Origin: Trichobilharzia regenti | Taxonomy: Eukaryota > Platyhelminthes > Trematoda > Strigeidida > Schistosomatidae | DNA: 64,000 nt | Direction of reading: 5' to 3' | Assembly: GCA_944472135.2 (NCBI GenBank) | Contig: CALYDD020000353.1 | Span: 124,001 to 188,000 of the forward strand | In this document: one piece after another, positions 3,875-56,925 of the stretch | Layout: each line of letters starts with the position of its first letter | How positions within the stretch are numbered: position 1 is the first letter of the stretch | The notes under the pieces: generated by a model | What the model was told of the DNA's origin: nothing | Seen by the model: only the letters and a program-made list of their open reading frames with translations | The model's database searches: none | Made by a program: the position numbers and the translations under genes

Positions 3875-3920
3875 ATGTTTCTCGGTTTCCTGATTGTTAT
3901 CCTGTTTTTACAGGCTTACA
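3875..3920 (+). CDS. MEG exon 1: start codon and signal peptide
   Basis: The ATG opens a 15-residue hydrophobic stretch, MFLGFLIVILFLQAY, followed by the first base of a split Thr codon. The donor GTAAGT follows at once. This is a typical MEG first exon encoding a signal peptide, with cleavage probably near the end of the exon. The A-rich sequence just before the ATG suits a eukaryotic start. Confidence 0.88.
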
Positions 3921-6900: not shown

Positions 6901-9900
6901 ATATCTTTGGTATTTGCGTTGAGTCGCTTCCGTTGCATTTGTTGGTGCATAGTACTTGTTGAACCAGAATTCAGTAATTGACCTCTCTCTCTCTCTTTCC
7001 ACCTACCTATATTACTTCCTAGAATTTTGACTCTGTGCCACCCACCAGATTATGTGGCTGTGAGTTAATGCATGCACTGCAATGTAGTGCTGACCTTTTT
7101 TCTAAATTACTTATCTTCTTGGGGTCAATTATTCTTACATTAGCTAAATTCTTATAGTCTGACAATTTCAACAGCCCCGACCTACTAGTCTGACCTATGT
7201 GGCTGATCTAACTCGCAGTCATTGCATAGCGTTTCGTAAATAATATTATTTTGTCTAATGGGGTCAACAGGGTCCTTTAACCTACAGAGCTTGTCCTACC
7301 TGATTGAGTTTTGAATGCCACCCTAATTCCTGTTCTATTGACAATCCTACTTCAGTGGTTCTAAGATGCCTCCTCCTTATATGGTAGAACTACTGTAGAT
7401 GTTTTATATTCTTTCTTATTTATGTTATCATTATTAGTTTCATTATTTTTTAAAATTTTGCTTTTGACCTGTTTTTATATTCATAATTAATTATATCACT
7501 TAGGTCTTTTCCTGTACTACTTAGTGTTATTGCTCAATTTGTTAAACACACACTTAACTAAGCCTGACTTTACAGATAACGGATGAAGTGATGAATTACT
7601 GTCTAAGTATCTTTCAGAATGCGTTGGCTTTTTATAAACGTTACCGTGCAGCTCACCTTCCTCTGTTCGTTTCATTTTACAATCTAACACTGTAGTTAAT
7701 TCTCCTTGTTCATTCATTTTCGGATTTAAATGTGAATTTTATTCCTTCTACTAGCTAGCTTATATGTGTAAAGAAGCTAGAGAGATATGTTCTGTTTTTA
7801 ACACTGTGTGTGTGTGTGTGTAAGTGTCAGTCATCTACATATCTCCATCATATCTTTGGAGTAGGGTTACATGTATTAAGAGCAACACTTTCCCAACTGC
7901 CCATAAAGATATCTGGAATTTCCTAAAAAAACAGAAAGACTAGTACTTTGATCTGATGACAATATAGTAAACTGTTTATTAAAACAGAAATTGACTATGA
8001 AGATGTAACCAGATGAAATCACGTCTATTGTCTGAATTCCCTACAGATTTTCTTTGTCTGTCTATTCCTTGTGGTACTGAGTTTTATAACTATCAATAGA
8101 CTTTCATTTAAGATGACTGCCTTGATGTTTACAGTTCAGTCATTTGCAATTGCATGATGCTTGTGTGTTTCTAAAACTTAACTTGATCAATAAATTAATA
8201 AATTGCTTAAATATGTTTTCAGCCACTGAGTTGAAAAGTTATGGTAAGTTAGTTCACTTTTAAAGATATGTATCATCATCATGTTCGAAAAACTTCCATC
8301 GGAACAGGCTACATTCTGCAGAAACGAGTCATGCAACAATCAAACCGCAACACTATGGATCTTTATTGAATACAGCTTGGAATAGCAGTCAATTGACTCG
8401 CTAATTCACTTTGAAAAGACCTTCAACACTGGTCAGTCGAGGGGTGATTTAGAAACGAATTTGCTACTACTCGCTGCTGCCAACAATTATACATCGCATC
8501 CAACAGTTGTACGTCAATGCTACATGTTGAGTAATCCAAAACGGGATACTCACGGAATCCTTTGGAGTAGAGACGGCAGTAAGACAAGGCTGGCTGCCTG
8601 CTATCTGCAGTGACTTTAATGGTTGCGGCAGACTCTGTTATGCGACAAACAGCGGGCAATCAGGAGACAGGCATTAAATGGATCCACTAAAAAGAAACTT
8701 GAAGGATCTGTACTTCGCCGATGATGACATATGTCTGAATCCCACAAACTGGAAGATATGCAAGTGGAAAGCAGCAAGTCGGCAGAAGAAGCATCCAGGA
8801 AAGATAGGAAGGACTTCGGGTGAACATGCAGAAAAACAGATGTGGTGATGGAGGTTCCTATCCAACAGCAGCAGGATTAACAACAGACAACAATCAGCTT
8901 AAACGGGAGAAGCTGAATCCGAAAGAAGCAACCTCCTTCACATACCTACCTGGGAAGCATCGTTTCAACTACACGCGGACGGAACTGGCGAGGATACCAA
9001 AATAGCGAGGAACGGGAAAGCAAGGCTGAAGTCTGCGTGGAGATCAACAGCACTCAGAGTGGGAAATAACATCCGGATTTCTAATTCCAATGTTAAGTCA
9101 GTGCTACTTACTATACGGTCAGAAACTTAACGACGTGTCACGAAGGCCACTTCGAACAAACTACACAACTTCATCAGTTGCTGTCTTCACTCAGTACTAC
9201 TCAAGAACAGATGGCCGGCTAGAAACAATCAGAAACAGGGAGGCATCTTTGGCAGCAAACGAAGCAACCTAGAAGGAAGCCGTTGTGCAAAAAATATGCA
9301 GAAAGAAATGGAGGTGGATTGGTCATACTCTGAGAAAACAAACTATCAAGTGACATCCCACTTTAGGCCATCGCTCGAGGGGAACCTTGAATGGAAAGTG
9401 GAGAGTTGGTCGCCAGTGCGAGGGTGATATGAAGGAGTTGATGTGAAGAAGAGATGGAAGCATGTAGGCAGGCGTGGATCCAGGTGAAAACGTTGTCAGA
9501 GAAGCGAGCGCAGTGGAGACATGTGACTGAAGCTCTACGTTCCTCTAGGAATTGCAGAAAACAATAATAATAATCAGCTGGGAGATATCCAAATGGTGGA
9601 ATAAGATATGAGCTTAAGTTGATTTTCAATGGAAGATGGATTATTAGTAGTAAAAATGGATCACTTCTAGTTTTATTTCTTCCGCTGTTGTATACCTTCT
9701 CATAAAAATCAGCATTCAGTTCCTTTCCAGAACTGACAGCTCCTTCATTAGTCATTAAAGTATTACAAACCCTGGTCCAATTTTACATAATCGAAGGCTA
9801 TTTGTAGGAATTTCCTAACTAAAATTTCAGAATACTTAATATCCATGAAAATGTCACCTCTTTCTAAAAAGAAAATTCATATTCTGTTGTAAGAGGTGGG

Positions 9901-12900
9901 CTAGTCGTACAAAGTGATGACCTCAGTTGTTCAGATGAAACTAACCTCTGCTAGGATGATGTGACTTGTGGGATGGCAAGGAATGTAGCTATAGGAATAC
10001 GAAGTTACGCTACAAAGAAATGCATTTTTATTTTATGTAATGTATTCACAACATACTGTAAAGCTACCAAGTAGTGTATACAGCTCGAATATAAGGATGT
10101 GAACGGTGATTTTTATTACAACTTTCAAAACTGCCAGTATATTTGCCTAGTCTTACATGGCAGCAGTTGCTGATTAACGGGGGAGTAAAAATCTCCTCAA
10201 ATCATTTTAAACTGATATTCTTCTGATAGCAATTACCAACTGTATCTCACACTAGAAATCGGTTAAAAGATTTGTTTTATTTAATTCATCTGTTTTCCTG
10301 TTTTTAGTCACTGAATGTAAGAATAATGGTGTTTAGTTTTTGATTTCAAGTTTTATGTGATCCATGGAGAAAATAAAAGACTATTCAGTGAAGAAAATTT
10401 TCTTCATCGACGAAATCATCTTCATAGGCTGTACAGTCGTATTTATGTTAGCCAAAAAATGCATAGTTGTCTATTATTGAGCAATAAAGGGGCAAGTGAC
10501 ATAATTAGTATGATTACTCAGAAGTGGCTTACAGGATTTCATCATGAGCTGATATTGGTTAGAGAACCATTGGAATTCATGGGCCATTGGGTCGGGCTCC
10601 AGTGGCTTAATAGTATACGAGCTCGCCTTGTAACCAGAACGTCCTGGGTTCGAACCCTGGTGGTGGGTACGTACTGATGAAGAGTCCCAAACTAGGACGA
10701 AACAGCTGTCCAGTACTCCCAGGTTTTCCAGTGGTTCTCTAACCAATGTCAGCTCATGATGAAGTCCTGTAACCAATCAATCAAATCCCTACAAACCAAC
10801 ACTTAAGAAATATAAATACGTAGTGTGCAACGGCCCAAAGGAAAAAAGCGTTAGAAATTTGATGAGATTAAAATCATTACTGCGTTGTTGGCACAGCGGT
10901 TAACATGCTCGTTGACAATGCACATGGTCTGTGACTAGATCCCCGGCCGGCGCACTGCTTTACCTCACTTACCCAGTAATAAGATTGGTAAAGAGGGAGG
11001 GTTGGGCATCAGGCTAGCAACCCCATCCTGTAAAAATAAACACTGCTACAGAAACTTCAAGCCTTTATCTTGAAGCCCTACGTTCCACTGGGGAACGTGA
11101 AGGAAATAAAGAAATTATTATTGAGTGAGGATAAAGGTAACTGAGTGTCAATTTAACAAGTGTAAAGAGGGTATGAAAATGTACAAAGGGAACATGTGAG
11201 AGTGGTTCTAGCTAATTAATTATTAAAGTGAAAGCAAAGTAAAAGTAAAATTGAGAATTAAAAATATTAAAATATTTTACAGGGGACTACCAGTGAAGAG
11301 GTTAAGACCATGGTAGAATAAGAGATTGGAGAAACATTTACTGTATACAGAGTTCGAGGTTGTATTGACGAATTACCAGCACCTCCACCATACACAAATG
11401 CGGAAACCTGATGCTCTTTGTACCATTTGGCCTCACTATGTAGATAATCTTGAAAGACGACTCTGGTGGAGTTACGTGGATTGAGCTCACCAAGTGCTCG
11501 AGAATTGAGCGAGTAACTACATTGCATTGTTCGTTTGCTAACCGTGCCGAATAATGTTTAGAAATGCGTCTGGAAAGTGTGAGCTTTGTACGATCAATAT
11601 AACTAGCTCCACAATAGCAGGAAAATTAATAGGACACACATCGGAGTGGTTCAGAGTGACAGTTTATCCTTCAAACATCCGCTGATCATTTATCGACTTT
11701 AGAAGTTGATAGGTACCTCAGCCTTTTCCAGTGATCTGGGTAAGCTGTCCTTCAAAATCTCAGCAGTGACATCACTTTTGAATTCAACGGACCATAAACA
11801 TGGTTTGGGGTTCGATCCCCTGCCGACGCCCACCTGATATCTGTGGCTGGCCTGCGAAATTTGGGCTACCGATATCAAATGCTGAAAATTCCATCCTTGT
11901 ACCAAAAATACGGTGTGGAATCAAGCTATAATCAAAAGAAAAGTAAAGAAAGAAACAGTAGTTTCTTTGGTAGCGTCTGGGTTCTTTCAGGTTTTTGCTT
12001 TACCTTCATATTTTTCTTGATAACTCTTGAAGGATATCCATTTTCCATGAAGAGTCGTCTGAGTATTTCCAGTTCCTCAAGTCTTTTAAATGTTAGCGAA
12101 AGTCACTTTTAATTACATTTGTGGATACAGGTGAAGATTTATGCACGAACGAGTGTAAGTCAAATGATGAATTAAGCAAAAGAAGCGTTTTTAACCGTGT
12201 TAATTAATTTAAATTTTCTTTTACTTTGCCATATTACAACACGCACATGCCTCTAGAATCTGAAAAGCTTCTGAAATATCTAACCAAAATACACAAATGA
12301 GTTGAAAGAATTACATTTATTTATGATCGAAATAAGCTATTTTTAAAAAAAAATGCAAACTTCATAATCTGGATATTAACATCCAACGAAAGCTGAGTGC
12401 AGAAGTATGGTAGTAAACTGGACGTTAAAAGGGCTATGAGATGAATATTAGTTCTTATTAAAGAACAAGATCCATAAAAGAACCAGCAGCTTTTGGAGTA
12501 GTGAGGTAATTCAGATTATTGACAAACTTTATACTGACTAATCAGAAGTTTCACTCAAAGAGTAATATCATCCGTGGTCTAACCATAAACAAATAGAATC
12601 CTTAGAAACTAATTCTTGAAATTTAACCTGATACTGGCTAGTGACCGGCTACAAGTTAAGTTACCTGGAGTTCTAGTGAGAAATCGTGACCAGTGGGGTC
12701 CATCAATTTGGCAGTGAGGATGGATGGAGTTCCTCTCGATGACATTGGTTGGTAGTCGCGCTAAATCACGAATTAGTAAAAGTTAGAATTCATGGGCCAG
12801 TAAACCAGGTCCCAGTGGCTGAATGGTATAGGAGTTTGTCTTGTAACCGGAAGGTCCTGTGTTCAAAACTCAACGATTGCGTACTACCGATGAGTCCAAA

Positions 12901-45900: not shown

Positions 45901-48900
45901 TGCACCCTACTTGTCACAGCTCCCGCTAGAACTCCAGGTTAACTGCCTGAATACGGCCAGTCGCTTGTGAGGATCACATAAATACTTCTTAATCGATTTG
46001 GTTCACCTCATATACTTTGATTGGCAATATCTGTTGGAATTACCTGTGTAAACAAGTAGTAACAAGAATTTTTAAATACTTCCCAATTGATATCAGATGC
46101 TCCTAAAGAAGAGTGTGGTAAGTAATACGTTTTGACTGCAAGACTGATTAGTTATTATACTTTCTGAAATTCCACTGTGTTATTATGCCTAAATATCATG
46201 GTAATTAGGTAGCCTGAATATAACAAGATAAACCTGAGTACGTTTTGTCAAATATACTTTTGAAGTATTTCAGTTTATTTTTTTTTAATAATTTAATCAA
46301 TAATTCTGAGAGGAATTACATCAGTGTACTTGATATTCAGTGCAAACACAGGAATAATAAAATTTTGTATTACTTTTGGAAATATTTCTAGTAGGGAGGT
46401 CAGATTCTGATGATGAAGATTGTGGTAAGTCAAATATTTCAGTTACAACACCATAAAAACCTACGCTTTTCGGATTTCTATTATTTTATTACACCTAAGT
46501 AGAAGAGGTTATTAAGTTATTCACATGGTTGCTTATATGAATAAATATTCGCATTCTAGAAGGATATACACATGTCAAAACAAGATTTTAAGCGAACAAT
46601 TCTTTTCGATAACTTCTTCTTCAGGCTCTACATTTAGAAATCCAGAATAATAGAGTACATATAGCCGATAAAGGCAAATGAAAATAATATCAGAAACTGT
46701 ATTGGGGTGCATGTGTAAGTTGAGATGATAGTCCATTAGTTAACATAGTCAAATGTGTATCAAATGTGTATAGGGTGTTTAGTCAGAAAAATGTGATGAA
46801 GTGTGAATGAACAATTGGGTGATATAGTACTGTTTCATAGTCAACAGAATACAAGTGTCATTGGGGTGAGACAAATGCGATAACCAGAAAATACATACAA
46901 ACACACATTAACAAAGGGGACACTGAATGTGAGGGCTGACCGATAATGTCTAATGATAAAATAAAGAGGCTAAATTGTAAATTGTAATAAGATGTTACAT
47001 AATTGGTAGGCTTAGTATAAAATCACAAAGGTTGACAAAAATTATGGGTAACAATGAGGTGAAATAAACTGGGTGGAGAAATGGATAATAAAGACATGAT
47101 ATCACAAAATGATAATAATAATACATATGAACTGTGATCAAGATTTGACCGGATAGTTGCAAAATAATTGATGATAATAATAATACGAAAAATCATGATC
47201 CTGGTGACCTTATAGTGGGCCAGGATAGACAGAGAGAGTGAATAAGTTTCTTCTGTACACATAGGTCTGGTCTCTCTCCCTTAATCACTATAGCTTCAGC
47301 TGTGGCTAGGAGGCGTAATCGTGTACCTTTGGGGAGATTGTACACAAGTCAAAAGTCTGTTATGCCTATTATGAATGCTCGAGCGAAACACAAGCTGCGT
47401 AGTTGTGCATTTCTATGTGTATTGACAAATTTAGCTGTTTCTGTGGAGAAAGCCATATAGAGAGAACAAAAAGACAGGTCAACGAATGTATCACTGAACA
47501 TCTTCCTTCATGGTTTGGAAAAGGCCAAGTGAAATCAATGAGAAGTTCTATTCTGTCTCATTTGATTGATGATAGTGGTCACAAAGTGGATAGAAGTGGT
47601 ACCTTAAAAGTTATCTATCACATTCCATCGAACCTTTCAAACGGAATTCAGACCTACCTTATATACACAGCGGAAGCTATGGGAATTAATTCGAGAGAAC
47701 AGTCCTAGTCTGTGCATAACATAGAAATTTGTTCTATCCTTGTCTCTCTATTGGCCTAGGTAAATCCTAATCAAAAACCCTCTTCCCCTCTCTTATTTTT
47801 CATTTTCTTCGTACTTTTATGATATTTATTTAAACTTTGATGATTTGTCCACTTCACCTTTAGTACTACGTAACTTTTGAGATTTCATCTAATTATCTAT
47901 TTATTGAATTGTCTGCATATACACATATTACTGCCTGCGTTATTCTTATCGCCACCCGAATAAACCTTATTATGATTATTTTGTTATCATCATCGTTGTT
48001 ATTAACATTTAGAACATTAGCCATATTATTATTTGATCCACAAAATCGTCATCACTGGTTAAATTCTGTTTAATATATAAATCTATGTAAATCAGAGGAA
48101 AGCCTGAAGGAGGTCTATTTGAAAACACCAATATTTTTCGCTTGTGACGACTGAAGACAAGGTCCAGGCAAAAGATAGTTTATTGAGAAAATCAATAGAT
48201 ATTTATAGATTTTTATGTACATTATTGTCAGCGGAGAAGCATTGTCTTCTGATTGGTTGTTTTCTTGGTGAAGGTTATTCTATACTGCTCGTGACCGTTT
48301 CTTCTAAATTTAAGCCATATATCTGCGAATCGTATTTGCACACATTAAGTCTTCTGTGATTGGTTGTTGAGTTCCTCAAGGTTAAGCTTTGTTATTCATT
48401 TCTCTCCTGACTCTGAATCGGAAATTTTAATATTGACGTAAATTGTTGTCTACAGTTTTGGCTTTCAGAAAGCACTCTTAACGCACGCTTATGTCTTATT
48501 CTAACATTAATAATGCGAATATTTAGAGACTTACAGAAAAGTTCGGGGATTTTCTATAGCGACGAAACAAGGCAGATATTTCCAGAAAAAAATTTATTTA
48601 CACCTACTTACTAACTATTTATAGATTTGAGCTCATTCCGAGATTTTGTTGAATGTTCTGCTAATAACCATATCCTACTAAGTGGCTTATTAGTAGGAAC
48701 GTACATGCACTGAGTAGGACAACATCAAAGAAATAATGAGTTAATCCTGAATAATTTACAATGGGACTCAATTATTTTATTGACGATCAATGCAACACCT
48801 TGATGAGAATTCCGTCTTTTTTCACAAACTTTACATTCCGAAAGGTGCCAACTTCAGTACCACTTTTCCCACACCAAATAATAAAGTGATAGCATTTATG

Positions 48901-51900
48901 CAGCGAGAAGAGCCGTTGAAGCAGAATACTTTGCTTTTGTTTCATTTGAGAATAATACCTGAGTTGATTCAAGCCTCTATGGTTGAAATTACACATTAAG
49001 CCTGATATACTGGAAAGTCAAATGGGTGTAAGGAGGGTGATGCAGGTCTGCGTTTGTTTATGACGGAAGCTTTTGAAATTATGTTTCCTCTTTATTCATA
49101 CCCATCAAAATTAATAACCATTTACTTTGTTATTCGTTATCTTATAGTAACGAGGAGATATCTAATGGCTTCATTTTCATGAACGAAAAGTTGACTTCTA
49201 ACATGACTGTTAGTTGGAAGCAGAGGAAATACATACTTCGTTTTCCGTTAGTTATTTTGAAAGTTATAAGCACGCAAAATAAATTGTGATTATTGAATCG
49301 ATTTCGTACATATTACTATCCATTTCCCGGGTTCTGGGTGGAACATACAACTTCAGCGGCATCTATTCACTGCATCCAGTTCTCTGCAGTGCTTTCTTTG
49401 TGGCTGTGTGACTGCTCAAAAGCTTTAATTTCCTCGTCACATGATCTTTCCCATTTCCAACGTGGACTTCCAATATCGCGCCTTACACACAGGTTCCACT
49501 TGACTGGCTGATGTGTGAAGCGGTGCAGTGGTCTTCTCAGTGTACATTCAGTCAATCTTCATTCTCTTATACATATCTGTCGACCAAGAGTTCTTGTCTT
49601 CTGGATCACGTTACCTTTCAGAGTCCCTTGTTACCTTTGCTTTTTGGCTGTCTTGTATTCAGTATCAAGAGAAGGAGGCAGGTGTTAGTGAACCTATGTA
49701 ACCTGTTAGAAGTACTTTTACTGGTGCATGAGCCAAGTCACCGAAATGATTAGAAGCGTAGGCTGACTTGATATTTGTATCGAAAATTCAAACCTTCTTC
49801 TTTGTCTTGTCAAAGATAAGAAATTCTTACCATCTCAAAATGAGCAAGCTTACTGATGTTTCGATGAAAGTTTAAGTAGTCTGATGTCAGATCTCTGATA
49901 TTTTGTTGTTTTCAAACTTTATGCGCAAATTACTTCAACATTCTGTTTTTCTATTTCAGAGAACACTGATTATGATAAATGTGAGAAAATGTTTTATTGT
50001 ATCACAGTTAGACTTGAATAAGTTGCAGTCATTGCATAACATATATCAAATAGGAAATATATGGACCATTTTAAGGTTCTTTATTTTTCACATCCAATCT
50101 CCATGTAGAATGAGGGATGCTTGAATAAATGCAAACACAATGGATGGAACTTAAAATTAATCAGAAAAGAAACGTTTTCGGGTATTGGCACTAAAGGCAC
50201 TACGTTTGCTACTTCGTTGAAGCTATTATGAACGTAGGTGTGTTGGTGGCACAACAGCAGAGTGTTCGGCAACCACACCACATATCGTCCGGGGTTTAAT
50301 CCCCGGTCACCGACGCACTCCTTTACCTCGCCTCAGCCAGTATTACGACTGGTAAAAGTGGAAGGTTAGACATGAGTCTAGCAGTCCAATTCGTAAAAAA
50401 TAGACACCACTGCTACCAAAACTTCAAGCCTCTAGCTTGAAACCCTATGTTCCACTGGGAAAGTAAAGGAATAAAATATTATTAGCCAAAATATGCTTTC
50501 AAATAATCTGAGTTGCAAATTAAGTAAGGCCTTTAAATACATTCTGTTAAACGAAATCTTAACTAAATTTGTAGGTGAAACCCAATGTTATGAGGAGGAC
50601 AGTAGGTGAGTTATTTATTAAGATATTTTTCTGGAATAGATTGGCATAAAAACTATTGATACAGAAAATGTTACTGCTTCCAGATATCTTGTGACGCCTC
50701 TTGGCATTTACGGAATTCTTGTCCTTCTGATAAATTTTGATCTGGATTAGTGATGAGCGGAACACTTTATGACATGATTAATTTTCTCGCGAACCCCAAA
50801 TTCCTTCAGCCATCTTTCATTTCTCTTAAGTCTTTAAATATTAGTAGATCAATGAACCGTAGTTAGAAAAGTAGATCATTGAATATAAATGACAGTAGTT
50901 AATAGAGCTCGACTTAAATTGACCCTCTTACATTTCTATTTCGCCGTTTATGTCGCGTTACTCAAATGCACTTTAGGTTTGAGATTATTTTAAACCATTG
51001 TGTTTGGCATACGGCAGTACACATATTGCTGTTAATTTACAGCTGAGCACTTGATCGACAAATATGGGATGAGGAAATTCACGCCAATCATATTGTGAAT
51101 GTAAAGTTAGAAATAATGACAATGAGCAAATTCTATTCGTGTTATTAACTGGTATTAGCCATGACATGTGAATCTTATAAGAGTCTAAGAGACTATATAC
51201 TCATATCACTGAATCATGACTTTGTCCTAATTAGTTTCAACTCTAATGACATGAAATCCAAAAGTAACGGCGTTGTTGGCTAAAATACAACAACCTAATT
51301 TTCGCATCTACAACAGAAGTGAAAGCAATTTGATGAAGCAATTTTAATCGTGTATCGCTATAACTTCCACTGGTTACCGACATAAGTTGGAATTCATGAG
51401 TTCGGTAATTTATGAGAAATGTTACATTTCAGCAGATGATGTAAAAATGTGGAGTCCTTGAGTTCTATGCTGTGTAATTATATAATTAGTTTAACTTGTC
51501 AATCAAAAGCAGAAGGACCCGAAGATTTTGCGTTTTGTGTTAAACAATTCAGAAAATTTGATTTAAGGTCCTGAATCGACTTGTTTTTAATAAGCAAATT
51601 AAATTCAGAGTGTGATTTATTAATCAATTTTCAATATATTCAAGCTGATCGTTAACGAATCTAAATGAACAGGTTCTTCAGCGATACCTTTCTTATAGTT
51701 ACGAAAATGATTATTCTTTATTGAATGAAAGCAATACTACTCAAATTATTTAGTTGAATTTTAGATTTACCCTTCGATTGATTGGACCGACGTGCTTGGT
51801 CCCAGGTTGACGTGTCGGCTTCTTGTGCAGAATTCAATTATATAATTAATATGGTCCGTTGCCCAAGAAATAGCTGGCTCTCGTGGCCTAAGTGGTCTAG

Positions 51901-54704
51901 TGAATAGCACTCTGGCTTTTGAAACTGTGGGCATAGGGTTCGAGCCTCAGTGGGAACATTATCACTCACTGGGGAATGCAGATACATCTAGATGACGAGT
52001 CTGAAATAGGACCAAATGCGCATGCTGGATTCTACTGCTAGTCACCATCCATTAATTAACTTCTAATACTACTTAAAGTGTATGAATCTCATCAAAGCTG
52101 CCTTCATGATTCAACATCCGGAAGGTTTATCTCAGTTCGGAATTTTGAGAAAATGCCACAGCTGCTTCATCATTAGAGTTGTGATTTTATGAGCAGTAAT
52201 TCACAGATTCTCTCACTGGCGCACTATCTCTAATATTTATATTTCATTTCAATGCTGTTGAAGAAATGCTTAGAGTTCTGGACATATCTTTGAAATATAT
52301 AATGAGGTAATATAGAGTGACATAGTTGATATAATTACTCAGAAGTGGCTTTAGAATGAGTGTTTATATATACACTTGCTCCTGCGGAACTAGCTATATT
52401 GGCCGCAGAAAGCGTACACTTTCCAAACGCATCTCTGAACATTATCCGACATGGTTAGCAAAAGCACAATGCGCGACAGTTATTAACTCAGTTCTTGAGC
52501 ACCTGGTGAACTCAAGCCATGCAGCTCTACCAGAGCCGTCTTTCAAGATCATTTACAAGGCGAGGCCAAATGGTACGTAAGGCATCAGCTTTTAGCAGTT
52601 GAGTATGGTGGGGGCGTTGGGGATTCGTTAATACAACGTGAAACTCTGCATGCAGAAAAAAGTCTGTTCAGTCTCTTAATCTACCTTGGTCTTAACCTCC
52701 TCACTAGACGTTGCCTATAAATTTTTTGTTTTTAATTTTTTAATTCTCAATTTTACTTTTAGTTCGCCTTTACTTAATCATTAATTCGCCGTTGTAACTC
52801 TCATATGTTACTTTCGTGCATTTTCTCACTTTCTTCACACTTGTTAAATTGACACTTAACTACCTCCTTTCTTCTTACTTAAAACGATTTTAACATTATC
52901 AAATTTTAAACGCCTTCTTCATTTGTGGCGTTGAGTATTACGTAATTTTCAACTTTCATTTTTGTTTTACTTCTGAAACCACCTCTGAGTAATTATATCA
53001 GTTACGTCACCCCTATTACTGAATAACAGACTCCTATACATTTCTTTGGTAGATAATGAGGCGAATGGTGAAACTGATAAAAGTTGTTTGATTTACTTTC
53101 TAGTACTGAGACTTCTTCATCTTCATTTGCATTTCACATGACAACAAATCATGATGATTTGATTTAAAATGAATTATTACATATTCCGGTTGTTGTCTTG
53201 GTTCCCTAGAACATTTGAGCTGTAAATCCCAGTCATATTTACTTACTAATTCGAACGAATCAATTAATTAATTATTTATTCGATAAATAATACCAGTAAA
53301 ATAATGAAAACAAAAGCAAATTTAGGACGCAGATTTGTAGATATAACCTGTAATTCTGTGTTTTAATTTTTCCGTGGTTTTTTCCTTTGTAGTCGGATGA
53401 AATCAAGGAAGTGAAGCTTCACCTATTGACATATTTGAATGTTTGAATTAACATCTAATAACTATTTTAGCCATTAATGTCATTCATTTAACTACCTAAC
53501 GACTTTATCAATAAATAAACTCCGACTTTTAATTTGATTCCTGAAACTGTCTGTTTGAAGTCTTGATTCGAAGAGTATTTACATATCACTGGCTACCTTC
53601 ATTCACTGATCTATCATTGTATACAGTATCATTTAAAGGAAGTATATCCAGCAAGTCATCGACCAATGTCATATTTTGTTGTATAGTTTGAGATTAGGTC
53701 AACTTAGGTTAACAAGATGTTTGTCGACTTTTAAAAGAACCTGTAATTTTCCAAATCACTGCATTTCGAATACAAAATTATCGACTACTGAGGGGGAACT
53801 TTCCCGTTATATGGTCAAATTTTGCGAAATGGGGTTTTTTACTGTCAAAAAAAAATTATGATGTACTTTGCGGCTACATGTACATATATTCTGCTGCAGA
53901 TAATCACTGCATATGTGACTTTGATTTAATTCATTGAATAGACTCATTAAAATTTTAAGCGAAGTTCTCAGTATAAATTTTATGAAAGACAGTCGAAGTA
54001 TTTGACGGTCGGAGGCAATCGGCAGGAAGCCTTGCCTCATCTAGGTTTCGTGCTGGTTGACACTACTCAGCAACGCCTGTCTGCAGCCTTGAAGGAATGC
54101 ATGTCCCTTCTGTGATTCGGACCTGCGTCGCCCAAAGCTACATTCAGAGACGTTGCCACTGGGCTATTCAACCTCGCGGTTGAGCTGCTATAGGACTTTA
54201 TCAGATATTTTTCATTGGAGAATAGTCAACCAATTGCCTACAACCATCTTATACAAACAATCCACAGTGCATCGTGATAACGAATTGCATACTTGACTGA
54301 TAGAATTCATTCTGCACTAAGGATTGGACTAGACACATTAAACTGTCCAATCAAAAAAGACGGTCGACATTTTACCTTAGGTCGTTACACTTGAAATAAG
54401 AAGACAGAAAATAAAAAGAATTACAATGTATTTGCGAAATTATTTAAACAATGTGTGAACAAGCAGTTGGACAACCTGTATTGCTTTATACGTTTATTCT
54501 GCTTTACAAATTTGAGAAAAAATCAAGGACAACAGATTTGTGGATTAATATGGTACCGTCATTTATTTTATCGGCTTCTTATTAGCTGCTGCTTACAGCC
54601 TAAAAAAATTATTATTCAGTTTTGTACAGAAAAGTCTTACCATAACTGTAATTTTTAGATGATGTCATTTGACAGGAGGTTCTGAACCTGATGAACGGTG
54701 TTAA
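3875..54704 (+). CDS. Micro-exon gene (MEG): secreted 158-residue protein with seven C-x3-C motifs, 20 exons
   Basis: This is a split gene: signal-peptide exon 3875-3920, eighteen internal exons of 9-33 nt, and stop exon 54676-54704. Joined length is 477 nt (158 residues plus stop). Every internal exon is a multiple of three and every intron interrupts a codon after its first base, so any internal exon could be skipped without frameshift. C-x3-C motifs fall at residues 26-30, 41-45, 56-60, 73-77, 87-91, 101-105 and 141-145. There are 18 cysteines and two N-glycosylation sequons (NAT at 63-65, NLT at 81-83). Residues 117-158 are acidic. Micro-exon genes with a signal peptide and symmetric tiny exons are an established feature of schistosomes, and their products are secreted from glands and tegument. 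The family number is not recognised. The introns total about 50 kb and are largely retroelements. Boundaries are read by eye; exons 3, 6, 16, 19 and 20 are the least certain, and alternative splicing is likely. Confidence 0.85.
4690..4800. repeat. Short copy of the 2600-type repeat
   Basis: Shares the TTGCTTTATTCCA and TTGCATCTAATTT motifs with the insertion at 43005. Within intron 1. Confidence 0.45.
4900..5190 (-). pseudogene. RTE-like 3' fragment, reversed
   Basis: The reverse strand matches the last part of RTE copies (the endonuclease-independent C-terminal reading with the W-x-W-x-GH motif is degraded). It joins directly to a SINE at about 5195. Confidence 0.65.
5195..5470 (+). repeat. 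tRNA-type SINE with degraded hammerhead
   Basis: Reverse tRNA-like segment (box B complement near 5222) followed by a + strand hammerhead-like block at about 5276-5320: GTGC and GAAACCTAG survive, but the core reads CTGGTGA and stem II is mismatched. Same family as the intact minus-strand ribozyme at 18837. Confidence 0.65.
5471..6504. other. Intron 1 sequence, two weak micro-exon candidates
   Basis: No recognised repeat. Two 12-nt segments bounded by AG and GTAAGT, at 5781-5792 (NSVY) and 6224-6235 (THEY), are phase-1 compatible with exons 1 and 2. They lack the cysteine pattern and have weaker acceptors, so they are not included in the model. Confidence 0.3.
6505..7800 (-). pseudogene. Penelope-like element fragment (family B)
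   Basis: The reverse strand carries a terminal-repeat segment (6505-6680), the C-terminal end of the GIY-YIG part (to 7002), a degraded GIY-YIG region, and the end of the reverse transcriptase domain with a YKKPTHSERYLD motif (7517-7717). Related copies at 23120, 28030, 58790 and 62830. Truncated at its 5' end and frameshifted. Confidence 0.75.
7801..7830. repeat. (GT)n microsatellite
   Basis: About nine GT units at 7806-7823. Confidence 0.8.
8223..8243 (+). CDS. MEG exon 2 (21 nt): TTELKSY
   Basis: Acceptor TTTTCAG and donor GTAAGT flank 21 nt that continue exon 1 in phase 1, encoding TTELKSY and ending on a single G. It has no cysteine and forms the mature N-terminus. It sits just upstream of an RTE fragment that begins near 8275. 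Confidence 0.85.
8275..9575 (+). pseudogene. RTE-like 3' fragment, RT palm to 3' end
   Basis: Parallels 16.7-18.1 kb and the end of the 40.8 kb element. Recognisable are the GYIL/QACLLSP-like region, a degraded FADD box (near 8715), the YLG-type motif and the terminal TTCCTCTAGGAATT-like end with an AAT tail. Several frameshifts. It lies 30 bases after exon 2. Confidence 0.78.
9576..10307. other. Intron 2 remainder; nothing recognised
   Basis: No coding frame or known repeat seen up to exon 3. Confidence 0.35.
10308..10316 (+). CDS. MEG exon 3 (9 nt): VTE
   Basis: A strong pyrimidine-rich acceptor ending in TTTTTAG precedes nine bases and a GTAAGA donor. It encodes VTE and ends with T, the first base of the Cys codon completed by exon 4. 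A longer 21-nt reading to a GTGTTT donor at 10329 also keeps phase 1 but ends in G and breaks the Cys pattern, so the short form is preferred. Confidence 0.7.
10529..10795 (+). repeat. tRNA-headed SINE with hammerhead-like domain and inverted ends
   Basis: Head with box A/box B (GGTTCGAACCC near 10649) followed by a ribozyme-like domain at about 10672-10720: stem I GTACTG/CAGTAC, stem II GTCC/GGAC, GAAAC, GTC. The core reads ATGAAGA rather than CTGAAGA, so activity is doubtful. The first ~42 bases are an imperfect inverted copy of the last ~42. Confidence 0.8.
10881..11118 (+). repeat. tRNA-headed SINE (family S3)
   Basis: Head with degenerate box A/B, middle with AGCAACCCCATCCTGTAAAA, end with TTCCACTGGGGAACGTGAAGG. 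Other copies at 14038, 15806, 25612 (reverse) and 50240. Inserted in a PLE. Confidence 0.8.
11738..11945 (+). repeat. tRNA-headed SINE (family S4)
   Basis: Box B-like GGTTCGATCCCC followed by the ACCTGATATCTGTGG-type tail and AAATACGG...AATCAAG end. Copies at 25085 (+) and 24290 (reverse). Confidence 0.7.
12131..12154 (+). CDS. MEG exon 4 (24 nt): CEDLCTNE, first C-x3-C
   Basis: Acceptor ATACAG and donor GTAAGT enclose 24 nt. The exon starts with GT, completing a split TGT Cys codon, and encodes CEDLCTNE. This is the first of seven exons with the same C-x3-C start. Confidence 0.85.
12155..12760. other. Intron 4 sequence; nothing recognised
   Basis: AT-rich, no repeat or frame recognised. 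Confidence 0.35.
12761..12985 (+). repeat. SINE of the 10529 family, degraded ribozyme
   Basis: Shares the AATTCATGGGCC head, tRNA-like CCCAGTGGCTGAATGGT and the AAAACTAGG stem-loop. The ribozyme core reads CCGATGA and GAAA has become GAGA, so it should be inactive. It ends about 30 bases before exon 5. Confidence 0.72.
13013..13033 (+). CDS. MEG exon 5 (21 nt): YSYARRQ spacer
   Basis: Acceptor TTTCATTACAG and donor GTGAGT enclose 21 nt encoding YSYARRQ. It has no cysteine and ends in T, ready for the next Cys exon. This is the only clearly basic spacer. Confidence 0.82.
13034..13639. other. Intron 5 sequence with an exon-3-like acceptor relic
   Basis: Around 13537-13560 the sequence TTTTCCTGTTTAGAGTCACT repeats the acceptor and start of exon 3 with small changes and no usable donor. 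It may be a decayed exon duplicate. Otherwise nothing recognised. Confidence 0.35.
13640..13845 (+). pseudogene. RTE-like 3'-end fragment
   Basis: Matches the final segment of 60685-60985, ending in TTGAAGCCCTATATTCCACT and an AAT-rich tail. No coding capacity. An AT microsatellite follows at 13856-13873. Confidence 0.65.
13921..13941 (+). CDS. MEG exon 6 (21 nt): CGGLCAG, C-x3-C
   Basis: A long pyrimidine tract ending in GAATTCAG precedes an exon encoding CGGLCAG. The in-frame donor is GTTAGT at 13942. A competing GTAAAC donor lies 4 nt further on and would shift the frame. The in-frame choice joins exon 7 through a split AGA codon. The Cys pattern supports it. Confidence 0.75.
14038..14272 (+). 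repeat. tRNA-headed SINE (family S3)
   Basis: Same middle and end as the copy at 10881, with TAGTTTGAAGCCCTATGTTCCACT near the end. Degenerate box A/B. Starts about 100 bases after exon 6. Confidence 0.75.
14273..15469. other. Intron 6 sequence; isolated tRNA-like piece
   Basis: A short tRNA-like segment, GGTAGCTCAGTGGTTTAAGC, lies at 14789-14808 without a complete cloverleaf, probably a SINE head remnant. Nothing else recognised. Confidence 0.4.
15470..15745 (-). repeat. Ribozyme SINE relic
   Basis: Reverse-strand hammerhead-like block at about 15505-15560 with stem I CCTTG/CAAGG, GAAAC and stem II arms, but core GTGACGA and cleavage triplet GCC. Tail with CATCTAATAT and CGAGTCACCTAG. Same family as 18806. 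Confidence 0.6.
15806..16055 (+). repeat. tRNA-headed SINE (family S3), best preserved
   Basis: Box B-like GGTTCGATCCCCGGC at about 15861, middle AGCAACCCCATCCTGTAAAA, end TTCCACTGGGGAACGTGAAGG plus A-rich tail. Ends about 80 bases before exon 7. Confidence 0.82.
16138..16161 (+). CDS. MEG exon 7 (24 nt): RAGAQTFY spacer
   Basis: The acceptor is a tandem CAG-GAG; the first gives 24 nt encoding RAGAQTFY, the second 21 nt, both in phase 1. Donor GTAAGT. Ends in T before the next Cys exon. A preceding exon ending in T would create a TGA codon here, which supports exon 6 ending in A. Confidence 0.85.
16690..18095 (+). pseudogene. RTE-like fragment, RT to 3' end
   Basis: Contains the palm A-box FDSVDREVIWKLI (frame 16781-17050), the QAGCLLYPV region and FADDD catalytic box (frame 16966-17430), then the thumb and C-terminal region to a terminal TTCCCCTAGGAATT and A-rich end. 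Frames shift at several points. Close relative of 8275-9575. Confidence 0.85.
18096..18800. other. Intron 7 sequence; nothing recognised
   Basis: No coding frame or known repeat seen. Confidence 0.35.
18806..19160. repeat. Composite SINE with hammerhead arms in both directions
   Basis: From left to right: an intact-looking reverse-strand hammerhead, a reverse tRNA-like head (GGTTCAAATCTC on the minus strand), then a + strand hammerhead relic near 18950-19000 (GTGC/GCAC stem kept, core and GAAA damaged), and a tail shared with 5195 and 54001. Confidence 0.75.
18837..18879 (-). ncRNA. Hammerhead ribozyme, canonical core
   Basis: Read on the minus strand: stem I CCTTG (18879-18875), core CTGATGA, stem II GTGC-loop CATCTA-GCAC, GAAA, two-pair stem III (AC/GT with loop CTAG), cleavage triplet GTC, then CAAGG closing stem I (18841-18837). 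All invariant residues of the hammerhead are present. The tiny stem III is typical of retroelement hammerheads, which may act as dimers. Catalysis is inferred, not tested. Confidence 0.85.
19161..19440 (+). pseudogene. Penelope-like element fragment (family A)
   Basis: Parallels 56095-56300 of the nearly complete PLE: the LNFLDCL-like stretch, RKPTHSK motif and MKVSVALNLLN block. It ends about 45 bases before exon 8. Confidence 0.7.
19485..19508 (+). CDS. MEG exon 8 (24 nt): CHLGCAEN, C-x3-C
   Basis: A very strong acceptor (T-rich tract ending TTTCAG) and donor GTAAGT enclose 24 nt encoding CHLGCAEN. The terminal Asn with the next exon's A-T forms an N-glycosylation sequon. It lies close downstream of a PLE fragment. 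Confidence 0.9.
19669..20894. repeat. Inverted repeat pair flanking an RTE fragment
   Basis: Arms at about 19669-19790 and 20766-20894 are imperfect reverse complements, sharing the TTTCGCTATTTAATGCTGCT core. Between them lies the reversed RTE fragment. The arms look like ends of one older element, possibly a PLE-type inverted terminal repeat. Confidence 0.65.
19866..20445 (-). pseudogene. RTE-like 3' fragment, reversed
   Basis: The reverse strand of 19866-20198 encodes the RRKWRWIGHSLRRP motif and C-terminal end of RTE ORFs, and the next frame has the upstream QQQNTSDFQ / SIRIRNLASASQKIF block. One frameshift separates them. It is much better preserved than most fragments here. Confidence 0.82.
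21215..21425 (-). repeat. SINE of the 10529 family, reversed
   Basis: Reverse strand has the tRNA-like head and a hammerhead-like block with CTGCGGA core and no GAAA. Inactive by inspection. Confidence 0.7.
21426..22198. other. Intron 8 sequence; nothing recognised
   Basis: AT-rich; no repeat or frame recognised. Confidence 0.35.
22199..22225 (+). CDS. MEG exon 9 (27 nt): ATNAGEYTA spacer
   Basis: Acceptor AATTATAG and donor GTAAGT enclose 27 nt encoding ATNAGEYTA. It has no cysteine and ends in T. Phase 1 on both sides. Confidence 0.88.
22226..23119. other. Intron 9 sequence; nothing recognised
   Basis: No coding frame or repeat recognised before the PLE pair. Confidence 0.35.
23120..23840 (-). 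pseudogene. Penelope-like element fragment (family B), reversed
   Basis: Parallels 6505-7150: terminal repeat with GATGACGTTTCGAGCAC, then the reversed GIY-YIG C-terminal region. It abuts a + strand copy of the same family. Confidence 0.75.
23841..24722 (+). pseudogene. Penelope-like element fragment (family B), with a SINE inside
   Basis: Starts with a GIY-YIG-type region (CDDCE-like block near 23930), continues to the C-terminal end and terminal repeat ending near 24722. A family S4 SINE (about 24290-24420, reversed) interrupts it. Confidence 0.72.
24290..24420 (-). repeat. SINE (family S4), reversed
   Basis: Reverse complement of the tail and tRNA-like part of 25085-25268. Nested within a PLE fragment. 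Confidence 0.65.
24809..24826 (+). CDS. MEG exon 10 (18 nt): CKNGCS, C-x3-C
   Basis: Acceptor TTTTTACAG and donor GTGAGT enclose 18 nt encoding CKNGCS, starting with GC that completes a TGC Cys codon. It lies just after PLE remains ending near 24720. Confidence 0.88.
25085..25268 (+). repeat. tRNA-headed SINE (family S4)
   Basis: Box A-like TAGCACAGCGGTTAGGA and box B-like GTTCGATCCCC, then the ACCTGATATCTATGG tail and an A-rich end. About 260 bases after exon 10. Confidence 0.78.
25612..25830 (-). repeat. tRNA-headed SINE (family S3), reversed
   Basis: Reverse complement of the copy at 15806, including the CCAGTGGAACATATGGCTTC start. The tRNA-like end is partly degraded. Confidence 0.75.
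25831..26719. other. Intron 10 sequence; nothing recognised
   Basis: A short reverse tRNA-like piece near 26320-26390 may be another SINE relic. Otherwise nothing recognised. Confidence 0.35.
26720..26743 (+). CDS. MEG exon 11 (24 nt): GANLTETN spacer
   Basis: Acceptor CTATTACAG and donor GTACGT enclose 24 nt encoding GANLTETN with an NLT glycosylation sequon. It has no cysteine and ends in T before the next Cys exon. Confidence 0.87.
26744..27575. other. Intron 11 sequence; nothing recognised
   Basis: AT-rich; no frame or repeat recognised. Confidence 0.35.
27576..27765 (-). repeat. Sm-alpha-type SINE, reversed, degraded ribozyme
   Basis: The reverse strand matches the head of 2865-3062 (GGCTCTCGTG start, box B GGGTTCGACCCCC). 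The hammerhead part is unrecognisable apart from ATCCAAATGG and GAAATG remnants. Confidence 0.65.
28030..29440 (+). pseudogene. Penelope-like element fragment (family B)
   Basis: A reversed terminal repeat (28030-28200) is followed by a frame (28258-28650) with the SNRYLDFNSSHPSSVKAGLVKC block, a degraded GIY-YIG region, and the forward terminal repeat ending near 29440. Truncated upstream of the RT palm. The inverted terminal-repeat layout matches the complete PLE at 54763. Confidence 0.8.
29477..29500 (+). CDS. MEG exon 12 (24 nt): CRINCELI, C-x3-C
   Basis: Acceptor TTTTTCTAG and donor GTAAGT enclose 24 nt encoding CRINCELI. It starts just after the end of a + strand PLE near 29440. Confidence 0.9.
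29790..30135 (-). pseudogene. RTE-like 3' fragment, reversed, degraded
   Basis: Weak match on the reverse strand to RTE ends; TCTATTTTCTTCCGTATATCTGC recalls the WRW motif region. Low conservation. Confidence 0.5.
30570..31900 (-). pseudogene. RTE-like fragment, reversed, RT to 3' end
   Basis: The reverse strand carries an FRRSKS(C)ASVKLQ-like start, FDFEKTF palm region, GCLLSP region, FADD block near 31420 and the 3' end TTCCTCTAGGAATT at 30590. Frames: 31661-31885, 30903-31166. Close relative of 16690-18095. Confidence 0.82.
32108..32125 (+). CDS. MEG exon 13 (18 nt): TQNDYM spacer
   Basis: Acceptor ATTTTCAG and donor GTAAGT enclose 18 nt encoding TQNDYM, ending in T. It follows an RTE fragment and precedes a ribozyme SINE. 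Confidence 0.87.
32250..32475 (-). repeat. SINE of the 10529 family, reversed, degraded
   Basis: Shares the AACAGTTAGAGAGCCACTG start and the CCCACCTACTGGGAATCGAAC tRNA-like reverse segment. Ribozyme core not intact. Confidence 0.65.
32476..33269. other. Intron 13 sequence; nothing recognised
   Basis: No repeat or frame recognised. Confidence 0.35.
33270..34080 (-). pseudogene. Penelope-like element fragment (family C)
   Basis: Both terminal-repeat segments are present (GTCGATAAAGAA motif and its reverse). The reverse strand of 33640-33831 has the SFKIIYKVRPNS block also found at 52356 and the C-terminal end. Truncated. Confidence 0.75.
34081..34842. other. Intron 13 end; nothing recognised
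   Basis: No repeat or frame recognised before exon 14. Confidence 0.35.
34843..34863 (+). CDS. MEG exon 14 (21 nt): CGTICGD, C-x3-C
   Basis: Acceptor CTTTCAAG and donor GTAAGT enclose 21 nt encoding CGTICGD. Sixth exon of the split-Cys type. Confidence 0.9.
35090..36360 (+). pseudogene. Penelope-like element, degraded (family D)
   Basis: Broken frames recall a PLE RT end and a GIY-YIG domain: near 35820 the translation gives an NCNSC...IGQSGRPLRLRIHEH series with one stop. A terminal-repeat motif GCTGAAGATG...GATGAAAGCTTCGC follows at 36260-36310. An AT microsatellite lies at 35263-35284. Confidence 0.72.
36785..37030 (+). repeat. SINE of the 10529 family, composite
   Basis: A reversed ribozyme arm (GGGAGTACTGGACAGCTG) is followed by the tRNA-like part and a forward arm with GAAGAGTC, AAAACTAGGATGAAAT and CCAGTACTC. 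Stem II is mismatched. Ends are inverted repeats as in the 10529 copy. Confidence 0.72.
37804..37827 (+). CDS. MEG exon 15 (24 nt): GLFVCAKT
   Basis: Acceptor TTTTCAG and donor GTAAGG enclose 24 nt encoding GLFVCAKT. It is a spacer-position exon with one cysteine and ends in C, breaking the T-ending rule of earlier spacers. The next intron is the longest after intron 1, about 8.3 kb, with a PLE, a solo LTR and the RTE element. Confidence 0.85.
37870..39450 (+). pseudogene. Penelope-like element fragment (family D): RT and GIY-YIG
   Basis: Frame 37887-38405 carries the RQIDGVTMGSPLSPVLADIF block and the catalytic YRYVDDTFV motif of the RT. Frame 38541-38819 continues, and 38797-39122 has a CGSSYIG-type GIY-YIG start and EVEIQKSFKIISRQR end. 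At least two frameshifts and a stop. It lies 40 bases after exon 15. Confidence 0.87.
39597..39820 (+). repeat. tRNA-headed SINE (other family)
   Basis: Box A-like TTGAGTGGTAGAATGCCTG and box B-like GGATTTGATTCC, followed by a body ending AACTTGAAACCCTATGTT, related to the end of family S3. Confidence 0.65.
39821..40336. other. Intron 15 sequence; nothing recognised
   Basis: No repeat or coding frame recognised. Confidence 0.35.
40438..40732 (+). mobile_element. Solo LTR inserted in RTE leader, 4-bp target duplication
   Basis: Starts TGTAACAACAG, ends CTCACCACA, flanked by AAAC on both sides (40434-40437 and 40733-40736). It carries three ATTGGTTG motifs. The flanking DNA resembles 445-590, so the LTR split an RTE-type leader. 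Confidence 0.82.
41520..41863. repeat. Inverted duplication within the RTE element
   Basis: Arms 41520-41687 and 41696-41863 are nearly perfect reverse complements with an 8-base spacer. The right arm is in the native RTE orientation; the left arm replaces a few codons and closes the endonuclease frame. Confidence 0.88.
42977..43470. mobile_element. Insertion in the RTE palm region with an AACAT array
   Basis: RTE sequence stops at CTACCCCAAA and resumes near ATATTCATCAACC. The insert begins with about five ACATA units (42981-43003), then a block shared with 2600 and 4690, then A-rich DNA. The sequence CAAATATA lies near both ends and may be a target duplication. Confidence 0.65.
44600..44680 (-). 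repeat. Truncated LTR, reversed
   Basis: The reverse strand starts TGTAACAACAGAAGACAAG and matches the first 80 bases of the solo LTRs. It abuts the RTE 3' tail. Confidence 0.7.
44870..45420 (-). pseudogene. Second non-LTR retrotransposon fragment, reversed
   Basis: The reverse translation gives an ASTNGLIADEISARI-like block and an LWCGHDIRPAVD-like block, as in the region after the RT domain of CR1/RTE-type elements. It differs from the RTE family elsewhere in this window. Degraded. Confidence 0.5.
45640..45855 (-). repeat. SINE of the 10529 family, reversed
   Basis: Reverse strand has the tRNA-like head and GTACTGATGAAGAGTCCC, but the second half of stem II and GAAA are altered. Inactive by inspection. 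Confidence 0.7.
46097..46117 (+). CDS. MEG exon 16 (21 nt): HAPKEEC
   Basis: Acceptor GATATCAG (modest pyrimidine tract) and donor GTAAGT enclose 21 nt encoding HAPKEEC. It opens the acidic C-terminal part of the protein. The following intron is only 274 nt, the shortest in the gene. Confidence 0.78.
46392..46424 (+). CDS. MEG exon 17 (33 nt): acidic, VGRSDSDDEDC
   Basis: Acceptor TTTCTAG and donor GTAAGT enclose 33 nt encoding VGRSDSDDEDC, the most acidic exon. A second TAG acceptor directly after the first would give 30 nt and drop the Val, also in frame. Confidence 0.85.
46550..48125 (+). pseudogene. Penelope-like element fragment (family E)
   Basis: A reversed terminal repeat (46550-46700) is followed by degraded DNA and a GIY-YIG frame at 47403-47708 (CFCGESHIERTKRQVNECITEH, where the usual YIGRT is HIERT) ending GINSREQS. 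A forward terminal segment follows. No RT is recognisable. Confidence 0.7.
48143..48485 (+). mobile_element. Solo LTR with 4-bp target duplication
   Basis: Starts TGTGACGACTGAAGACAAGG, ends TTAACGCA, flanked by CGCT on both sides (48139-48142 and 48486-48489). More diverged than the copies at 1762 and 40438. Two ATTGGTTG motifs. Confidence 0.8.
48490..49317. other. Intron 17 sequence; nothing recognised
   Basis: The complementary open frames near 48787-48999 are short and show no known motif. Confidence 0.35.
49318..49790 (-). pseudogene. RTE-like 3' fragment, reversed
   Basis: The reverse strand matches the end of RTE copies (GTTCCACCCAGAACC end, LRRPLHRFTHQ motif). Degraded. It ends about 170 bases before exon 18. 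Confidence 0.65.
49960..49980 (+). CDS. MEG exon 18 (21 nt): ENTDYDK spacer
   Basis: A strong acceptor (TTTTTCTATTTCAG) and donor GTGAGA enclose 21 nt encoding ENTDYDK, ending in T. Joining it directly to the terminal exon would give TGA, so exon 19 must intervene, which it does with a Cys-type start. Confidence 0.82.
50240..50472 (+). repeat. tRNA-headed SINE (family S3)
   Basis: Head with GGCACAACAGCAGAGTG, box B-like GGGTTTAATCCCCGG, and the CTTGAAACCCTATGTTCCACT end. Ends about 100 bases before exon 19. Confidence 0.78.
50575..50601 (+). CDS. MEG exon 19 (27 nt): CETQCYEED, seventh C-x3-C
   Basis: Acceptor ATTTGTAG precedes 27 nt encoding CETQCYEED. The in-frame donor is GTAGGT. A better-looking GTGAGT donor 4 nt downstream (50606) would make a 31-nt exon and shift the last exon to an earlier stop. 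The C-x3-C start after a T-ending exon supports reality. Confidence 0.76.
50602..51867. other. Intron 19 sequence; nothing recognised
   Basis: AT-rich; no repeat or frame recognised. Confidence 0.35.
51868..52066 (+). repeat. Sm-alpha-type SINE with dead hammerhead
   Basis: tRNA-like head (GGTTCGAGCCTC box B) and ribozyme block at 51984-52030. Core reads ATGACGA, stem II is GTCT/GGAC and GAAA is CAAA, so it cannot be active. Same family as 2865. Confidence 0.78.
52290..53060 (+). pseudogene. Penelope-like element fragment (family C): GIY-YIG
   Basis: Frame 52356-52580 encodes a GIY-YIG domain start (YIYTCSCGTSYIGRRKRTLSKRISEH) and the PSFKIIYKARPNG block. It then breaks, and the terminal-repeat segment follows to about 53060. 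No RT. Confidence 0.82.
53061..54000. other. Intron 19 sequence; nothing recognised
   Basis: No repeat or frame recognised. Confidence 0.35.
54001..54350 (-). repeat. Ribozyme SINE relic
   Basis: Same layout as 18806: reversed ribozyme block near 54015-54075 (core disrupted to CTGAGTA), reversed tRNA-like segment, tail with ATTGCCTACAACCATCTTAT. Inactive. Confidence 0.65.
54676..54704 (+). CDS. MEG exon 20: terminal exon, RGSEPDERC and stop
   Basis: Acceptor GACAG (tandem CAG-GAG, weak pyrimidine tract) precedes RGSEPDERC and TAA at 54702-54704. The composition matches the acidic exon 17. No canonical AATAAA is seen before the PLE inserted at 54763; TATAAA near 54766 is the nearest hexamer-like signal and belongs to the PLE repeat. 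Confidence 0.72.
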
Positions 54705-56428: not shown

Positions 56429-56925
56429 CCATTCCATATCGAAAAGACCCAGATGAACAACTTCAAAGACTATTTGCTTCATATGATATAGGAGTCTATG
56501 TCAAACCTTCTAATTCTCTAGAGAAAGCGCTGGTGCATGTCAAAGATATAGTTCCCAAAATGTCACAAAGTAATTGTATCTACAAGATAAAGTGTTCAGA
56601 ATGTGATGCATGCTATATAGGGGAGAGCAGTACGCAGGTGAAGGTCAGAGTGAATGAACATAGACTATGCACGAAACGTCCACCTAGAAATGAAGTAGAA
56701 TTAAAAAGTCTAGAAAAAAGATCGGCTATAGCAATGCATGTGATAGACAGCGGACATAAGATTGATTTTGACAATGTCGAAATTCTTGGAAGAGGATTTC
56801 ATTCACATAAAGAAAGATTGACTTCGGAAGCCTTGCACATTTTAACCACATCAAATGCAGTGAATAGGAAAGAAGGTATAGACTTATCACCTATATGGCA
56901 AACTCTTATGAAGCAAGACAAATGA
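56429..56925 (+). CDS. PLE GIY-YIG endonuclease domain
   Basis: In a different frame from the RT, the linker resumes with an IPYRKDPDEQLQ-like stretch, then CIYKIKCSECDACYIGE, the GIY-YIG signature with the paired Cys found in PLE endonucleases, followed by VRVNEH and a C-terminal helix region ending at TGA/TAA near 56925. It nicks target DNA for insertion. Likely once fused to the RT. Confidence 0.87.

Follow-up and report, generated by a model that had tools for sequence, protein, structure and literature searches.

The question raised by this locus is what kind of gene spreads a small protein over 51 kb of DNA in exons of 9–33 nt, and whether the regular order of its cysteines is connected with the way in which it is spliced. 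The locus lies in Trichobilharzia regenti, in a window of 64,000 nt (contig CALYDD020000353.1, positions 124,001 to 188,000) of an assembly of 954 Mb in 548 contigs (GCA_944472135.2). An initial annotation, made from the letters of the DNA, had described there a micro-exon gene (MEG) of twenty exons coding for a secreted protein, and had found no family name for it. Such a family does exist. Judging from the sequence comparisons described below, the gene belongs, as a Trichobilharzia representative, to the MEG-3 (Grail) family of schistosome micro-exon genes. The whole explanation, a Trichobilharzia MEG-3 gene for a small secreted, disulfide-stapled helical protein that would be cassette-spliced, is given a probability of about 0.85, and the interpretation of the initial annotation was partly supported.

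Reconstruction of the Gene

The exon list was rebuilt from the earlier description by a scan for symmetric phase-1 micro-exons followed by splice joining. All exons are on the plus strand and all coordinates are positions within the window. The rebuilt 20-exon model had GT/AG borders throughout and an intact frame over 51 kb, from a first exon at 3875–3920 to a last one at 54630–54658, with 18 internal exons of 9–33 nt between them. As had been claimed, all 18 were divisible by three and in phase 1-1. The encoded protein was continuous and of the secreted type, with a hydrophobic N-terminus, and it measured 157 residues plus the stop, not 158.

A first protein search gave only two matches, both from T. 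regenti. The protein P0001 (UniRef A0AA85K7J9, 106 aa, an entry that is either transcript-based or predicted) matched the window protein over the stretch that begins with exon 4 and ends with the exon at 46097, and 87 of the 89 residues that it shared with the 20-exon model were identical. It also carried 15 extra residues before CLFVC, through which two exons missed by the initial annotation were recognised, 34843–34863 (CGTICGD) and 36586–36609 (IPSFLQR). The first of these has an AAG acceptor and had been excluded by the first exon-scan filter. With both added, the enlarged model counts 22 exons and codes for 172 residues, 20 of them cysteines, and all 20 internal exons (a doubtful one at 46848–46865 included) are 9–33 nt long, divisible by three and in phase 1. 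The coding parts of the end exons, in their coding portion only, are 46 nt (exon 1) and 29 nt (exon 22).

From this comparison of sequences, P0001 probably represents the same gene or an allele of it. Both residue differences fall in the 18-nt exon 24809–24826, and a second copy of this exon was not found in the window. The N-terminus is missing from P0001, and its other end looks as intron read-through would leave it: its C-terminal GK is the exact product of reading through the donor at 46117 (46118 onward), which reflects either intron retention or a gene-model artefact.

A chance alignment of splice-like signals was considered, as very short exons carry little information and the splice scan passed 34 candidates on the plus strand and 14 on the minus strand. 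A scan was made for the C-x3-C exon motif, AG/GY-N9-TGY plus a donor with at least four of six consensus letters. Nine sites were detected on the plus strand, eight of them the C-x3-C exons of the gene and the ninth a weak one at 28337–28375, and none on the minus strand of the window. In 200 dinucleotide shuffles the mean was 0.99 and the maximum 5, in line with the earlier statement that chance would not give such a rhythm. The C-x3-C motif and the weights of the splice scan were devised after the exons were known, so that ranks and shuffle counts overstate their independence. P0001, a protein built independently of the exon reconstruction, is the stronger evidence. Chance was rejected as essentially untenable: it is refuted by the match of this existing T. 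regenti protein, by the two missing exons that it located, and by the homology to named MEG-3 proteins, MEG 3.1 in particular.

Assignment to the MEG-3 Family

Three protein searches of increasing depth led from T. regenti to T. szidati, S. haematobium, S. japonicum and S. intercalatum, and then to the MEG-3 proteins of S. mansoni. The profile search found S. mansoni MEG 3.1 isoform 1 at E 3.2e-46, the MEG-3 (Grail) family at E 1.0e-42, MEG 3.2 isoform 3 at E 1.5e-34 and MEG 3.2 isoform 1 at E 7.0e-29. In a direct BLASTP comparison, the window protein in its 166-residue form (without the doubtful exon) was 34% identical to MEG 3.1 over 160 columns, with a single-comparison E of 4e-28. The comparison of the joined protein with schistosome MEGs, which the initial annotation had suggested, thus gave MEG 3.1, MEG 3.2 and MEG-3 (Grail) as matches, with homology over most of the length. 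In a 12-row tree, made of 11 of the 12 homologues of alignment A7 and the window protein, the latter fell with Trichobilharzia and apart from Schistosoma (100/100), with six of the nine inner forks open. The homologue P0014 was dropped for its frame-shifted tail, and P0002, P0007 and P0015 were outside the alignment and hence outside the tree.

MEGs are defined by central coding micro-exons of less than 36 bp, mostly symmetrical (PMC4671649), a size and symmetry shared by all 20 internal exons of the 22-exon model. The definition adds a signal peptide mostly in the 5′ exon, longer flanking 5′ and 3′ exons, and variants made by micro-exon skipping (PMC4671649). The description of the locus as a schistosome-type micro-exon gene was therefore borne out in exon size, symmetry and homology. 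In S. mansoni, MEG-3 proteins have C-x3-C cysteine pairs spaced 9–12 residues apart (PMC7982949), and the core of the window protein has them too. CGGL is listed among the motifs of the clade containing MEG-3, with three genes and 12 isoforms, in a paper that also supplies the S. mansoni gene numbers Smp_138060, 138070 and 138080 (PMC10526429). For the bird schistosomes, four MEG transcripts have been reported in T. regenti and ten in T. szidati (PMC6362228). MEG-3 of S. mansoni is described as secreted by schistosomula and eggs and expressed in the head gland of the schistosomulum (PMC9062357), with a strong up-regulation at the lung stage (PMC7263636).

Like S. mansoni MEG 3.1, 3.2 and 3.3, the window protein has the putative leader, the CGGLC and G(A/P)QTFYC stretches and near full-length homology, and like S. 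mansoni MEG-3 it has a last C-x3-C-Y. The core cysteine spacing is nearly identical in both, 3 alternating with 9–12. Compared at the protein level, the window protein differs from S. mansoni MEG-3 by an added acidic stretch with extra cysteine before the last C-x3-C. The micro-exon layout and the putative first-exon leader are shared with other MEGs (MEG-4, 8, 14, 26-32 and others). The gene is thus a further member of a known family, of a kind ordinary for a schistosome.

The paralogue P0002 (A0AA85J3R2) carries the UniRef name ‘TIL domain-containing protein’, which implies a trypsin-inhibitor-like (TIL) protease inhibitor, a reading that would also suit a cysteine-rich protein of secreted type. 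However, Pfam-A, searched up to E 10 with P0001, P0002, P0003 and the 20-exon window protein, yielded no family, and the fold predicted for P0003 is all-helical, so that an inhibitor of this type is very improbable. For the window protein and P0001 to P0007, no Pfam family passed the cut-off, and PDB sequence searches gave no match.

Exon Order and Cysteine Rhythm

The exons, the frame, the family and the cysteine rhythm are established by the present analysis. Exon 1 (3875–3920) has the start codon, a signal-peptide-like N-terminus that is hydrophobic by inspection and a phase-1 donor, and it aligns with the leaders of P0002, P0003 (A0AA85KI46) and S. mansoni MEG 3.1. Exons 2 (8223–8243, cysteine-free and found by the splice scan) and 3 (10308–10316) are outside the coverage of P0001; the last letter of the latter, only 9 nt long, is the T of the next cysteine codon.

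From exon 4 to exon 16 (12131 to 37827), seven C-x3-C exons and six spacers alternate strictly. The initial annotation had seen this alternation in eleven exons, and it extends to 13 once the two missed exons are included. The C-x3-C exons are exon 4 (12131–12154, CEDLC), exon 6 (13921–13941, CGGLC), exon 8 (19485–19508, CHLGC), exon 10 (24809–24826, CKNGC), exon 12 (29477–29500, CRINC), exon 14 (34843–34863, CGTIC) and exon 16 (37804–37827, CLFVC). The spacers between them are exons 5 (13013–13033), 7 (16138–16161), 9 (22199–22225), 11 (26720–26743), 13 (32108–32125) and 15 (36586–36609). P0001 contains exons 5 to 16 and the residues of exon 4 that follow its first cysteine; in exon 10 it reads CKDGC and has one further residue difference. 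The motif of exon 7, GAQTFY, was invariant in the eight alignment rows, with GPQTFY in S. mansoni. By simple arithmetic, the odds of such an alternation from order alone, given seven exons of one kind and six of the other, are 1 in 1716.

Farther downstream, exon 17 (46097–46117) has a single cysteine at its end, and its donor is the one read through in P0001 to give GK and a stop. Exon 18 (46392–46424), acidic and also with a single terminal cysteine, aligns with P0002 and P0003. Exon 20 (49960–49980) is a spacer, ENTDYDK, which aligns with ENPNLIT and ENPNLYN of these paralogues, and exon 21 (50575–50601) is a C-x3-C exon, CETQC, whose counterpart in the alignment with S. mansoni MEG 3.1 is CKTKC. 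Exon 22 (54630–54658) is the last coding exon, with the stop; it was read from the genomic DNA and has little similarity to the paralogues.

All eight C-x3-C exons, the seven of the core and exon 21, begin with GY and follow an exon that ends in T, so that the first cysteine codon of each is split by a phase-1 intron. Not counting the doubtful exon, there are eight C-x3-C units; the seven of the core are spaced by 10, 10, 12, 9, 9 and 10 residues, and the core pairs repeat every 14–17 residues.

The doubtful exon is exon 19 (46848–46865, EYKCHW). It was the only one of the 20 internal exons below the splice-scan cut, and in P0002 and P0003, which are paralogues with the same layout, its upstream neighbour is joined directly to its downstream neighbour and its residues are absent. 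P0002 also seems to have a retained intron before its GKLC. Leaving exon 19 out gives a protein of 166 residues with 19 cysteines, and its cysteine spacing equals that of P0003 except for the first linker and one last cysteine. A point for the exon is that it would complete a further C-x3-C, across an exon junction. We lean towards a false or optional exon. The twenty-exon set of the initial annotation belongs to a real gene, with two exons missed and this one in doubt.

Predicted Fold

An all-helical structure was predicted by AlphaFold for the paralogue P0003, with a pLDDT of 81.7 and a pTM of 0.77 in the best model. Of the 16 cysteines in the eight C-x3-C pairs of that model, 13 fell in helices of at least four residues, two lay one residue beyond a helix end and one was outside any helix. 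Disorder is often ascribed to MEGs, but the prediction suggests that MEG-3 may be ordered and that its structure would be worth solving, and the layout of MEG-3 would, unlike that of other MEGs, predict an ordered cysteine-rich fold.

C-x3-C motifs are carried on helices in plant alpha-hairpinins, small Tim proteins and ascidian vanabins, which are analogies only. Vanabin-2 appeared as a Pfam match of P0004 below the cut-off (E 2.2), and neither the helical hairpins with twin C-x3-C nor the vanabins gave a PDB sequence match or a clear fold match to the window family. The structure comparisons, made with Foldseek and VIA-align, turned up no convincing relative and no convincing PDB match.

Exon Skipping and Cysteine Pairs

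Putting these observations together, exon 1 would encode a hydrophobic leader, and 19 or 20 symmetric phase-1 micro-exons with a short last coding exon would encode a small secreted protein. Its core would consist of helix-borne cysteine pairs (C-x3-C, one helix turn apart) recurring every 14–17 residues, each pair in a single exon with its first codon split T/GY by the upstream intron and each linker supplied by the intervening exon. We infer that the cysteines pair as disulfides, and the stapled helical protein may be released at the host interface, as reported for MEG-3 from schistosomula and eggs. Splice variants of this locus would arise from cassette exons dropped without a change of frame, each drop shortening the protein by one helix-plus-cysteine-pair module.

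Single exons of the 22-exon model were removed in silico. Skipping exon 4, 8, 10, 12, 14 or 16 lowered the cysteines from 20 to 18 with the frame kept. Skipping five of the six spacers between the C-x3-C exons left 19, the next cysteine becoming Ser or Gly, and skipping spacer exon 5 left all 20. The pattern fits a design in which the cysteine pair is the unit of splicing, which is offered as a testable suggestion and not as a result. Cassette exon use does occur in the family, as the residues of the exon 6 counterpart, present in S. mansoni MEG 3.2 isoform 1, are missing from isoform 3.

Several points weigh against this explanation. In the in silico test, loss of exon 6 brought a TGA stop to the exon junction and loss of exon 21 a TAA, so the skip seen in S. 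mansoni would end translation in the window gene, in which it thus differs from S. mansoni MEG-3. In MEG 3.2 isoform 3 itself the skip loses one cysteine and not two, as the junction re-creates a cysteine. The family does not, then, follow a rule of ‘one skip, one pair’. The alternation is broken after exon 16, where exons 17 and 18 have single cysteines, and the even count of 20 hinges on the doubtful exon, so that an even parity is not established. As to the fold, the five models of P0003 ranged in pLDDT from 48.1 to 81.7, three of them at 48–54; P0001, the protein nearest to the window gene, reached only 67.2; and the alignment behind the predictions had only seven rows. The gene model itself is derived from genomic DNA and protein comparison.

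The rhythm could also be the residue of an ancient tandem duplication of a C-x3-C exon together with a spacer exon, with no purpose in splicing and a mostly constitutive, fixed protein as its product. The exon pair repeats regularly, in constant phase and with near-constant spacing, the core spacing is conserved in both genera, and the skip of exon 6 would truncate the window protein, all of which agree with such an origin. Against it, cassette use is seen in the family, where one such exon distinguishes the MEG 3.2 isoforms of S. mansoni; moreover, a duplicate origin and variable splicing can both hold. We give a purely duplicative rhythm somewhat less than even odds.

Returning to the cassette-spliced protein, a possible addition to knowledge is that each core cysteine pair corresponds to one exon whose first cysteine codon is split in phase 1, so that skipping would usually remove one whole pair. 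A bolder proposal goes further: MEG-3 would be a disulfide-stapled helical repeat protein of unsolved fold, in which the split cysteine codons tie splicing to disulfide pairing and the variants form a graded, foldable set. We hold this proposal to be rather unlikely. If it were true, the drop of a C-x3-C exon would remove both cysteines of a pair in frame, the drop of a spacer would usually mutate one cysteine, and alternative splicing would yield graded foldable proteins and not random variants.

Retroelements and Integrity of the Locus

Just 3′ of the last exon, at 55076–56925 on the plus strand, a reverse-transcriptase open reading frame (ORF) matching RVT_1 (E 1.4e-11) precedes an ORF that resembles GIY-YIG at E 0.0027, which does not reach the Pfam cut-off; together they look like a Penelope-like element. 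Retroelement debris was also found in the introns on the same strand, with RVT_1 fragments at 37887–38405 (E 2.5e-9) and 16966–17430 (E 4.5e-5, below the cut-off). The ORFs at 41105–42749 (+) look endonuclease- or reverse transcriptase-like by eye; two of the three were scanned against Pfam and gave no match at 0.01. The 20-kb flanks on either side of the window appear to share repeats, as the same hits by tblastn and by motif turn up at differing places in L001 and L003, and likewise in L002 and L004.

The debris in the introns, the end of P0001 that reads through a donor and the weak exon at 46848 would suit a decaying, unexpressed MEG-3 copy. The frame and the GT/AG borders are nevertheless intact across 51 kb and P0001 is nearly identical, which makes such decay improbable.

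Significance for the MEG-3 Family

With these results, the structure of a MEG-3 gene in a bird schistosome is available at base level. The cysteine rhythm is older than the split between Trichobilharzia and Schistosoma, the core spacing being common to both. Although the gene is ordinary in kind, its orderly exon logic merits attention, and the old question of what micro-exon splicing is for may be turned into a prediction that can be counted: which exons are skipped, and whether the cysteines are lost in pairs.
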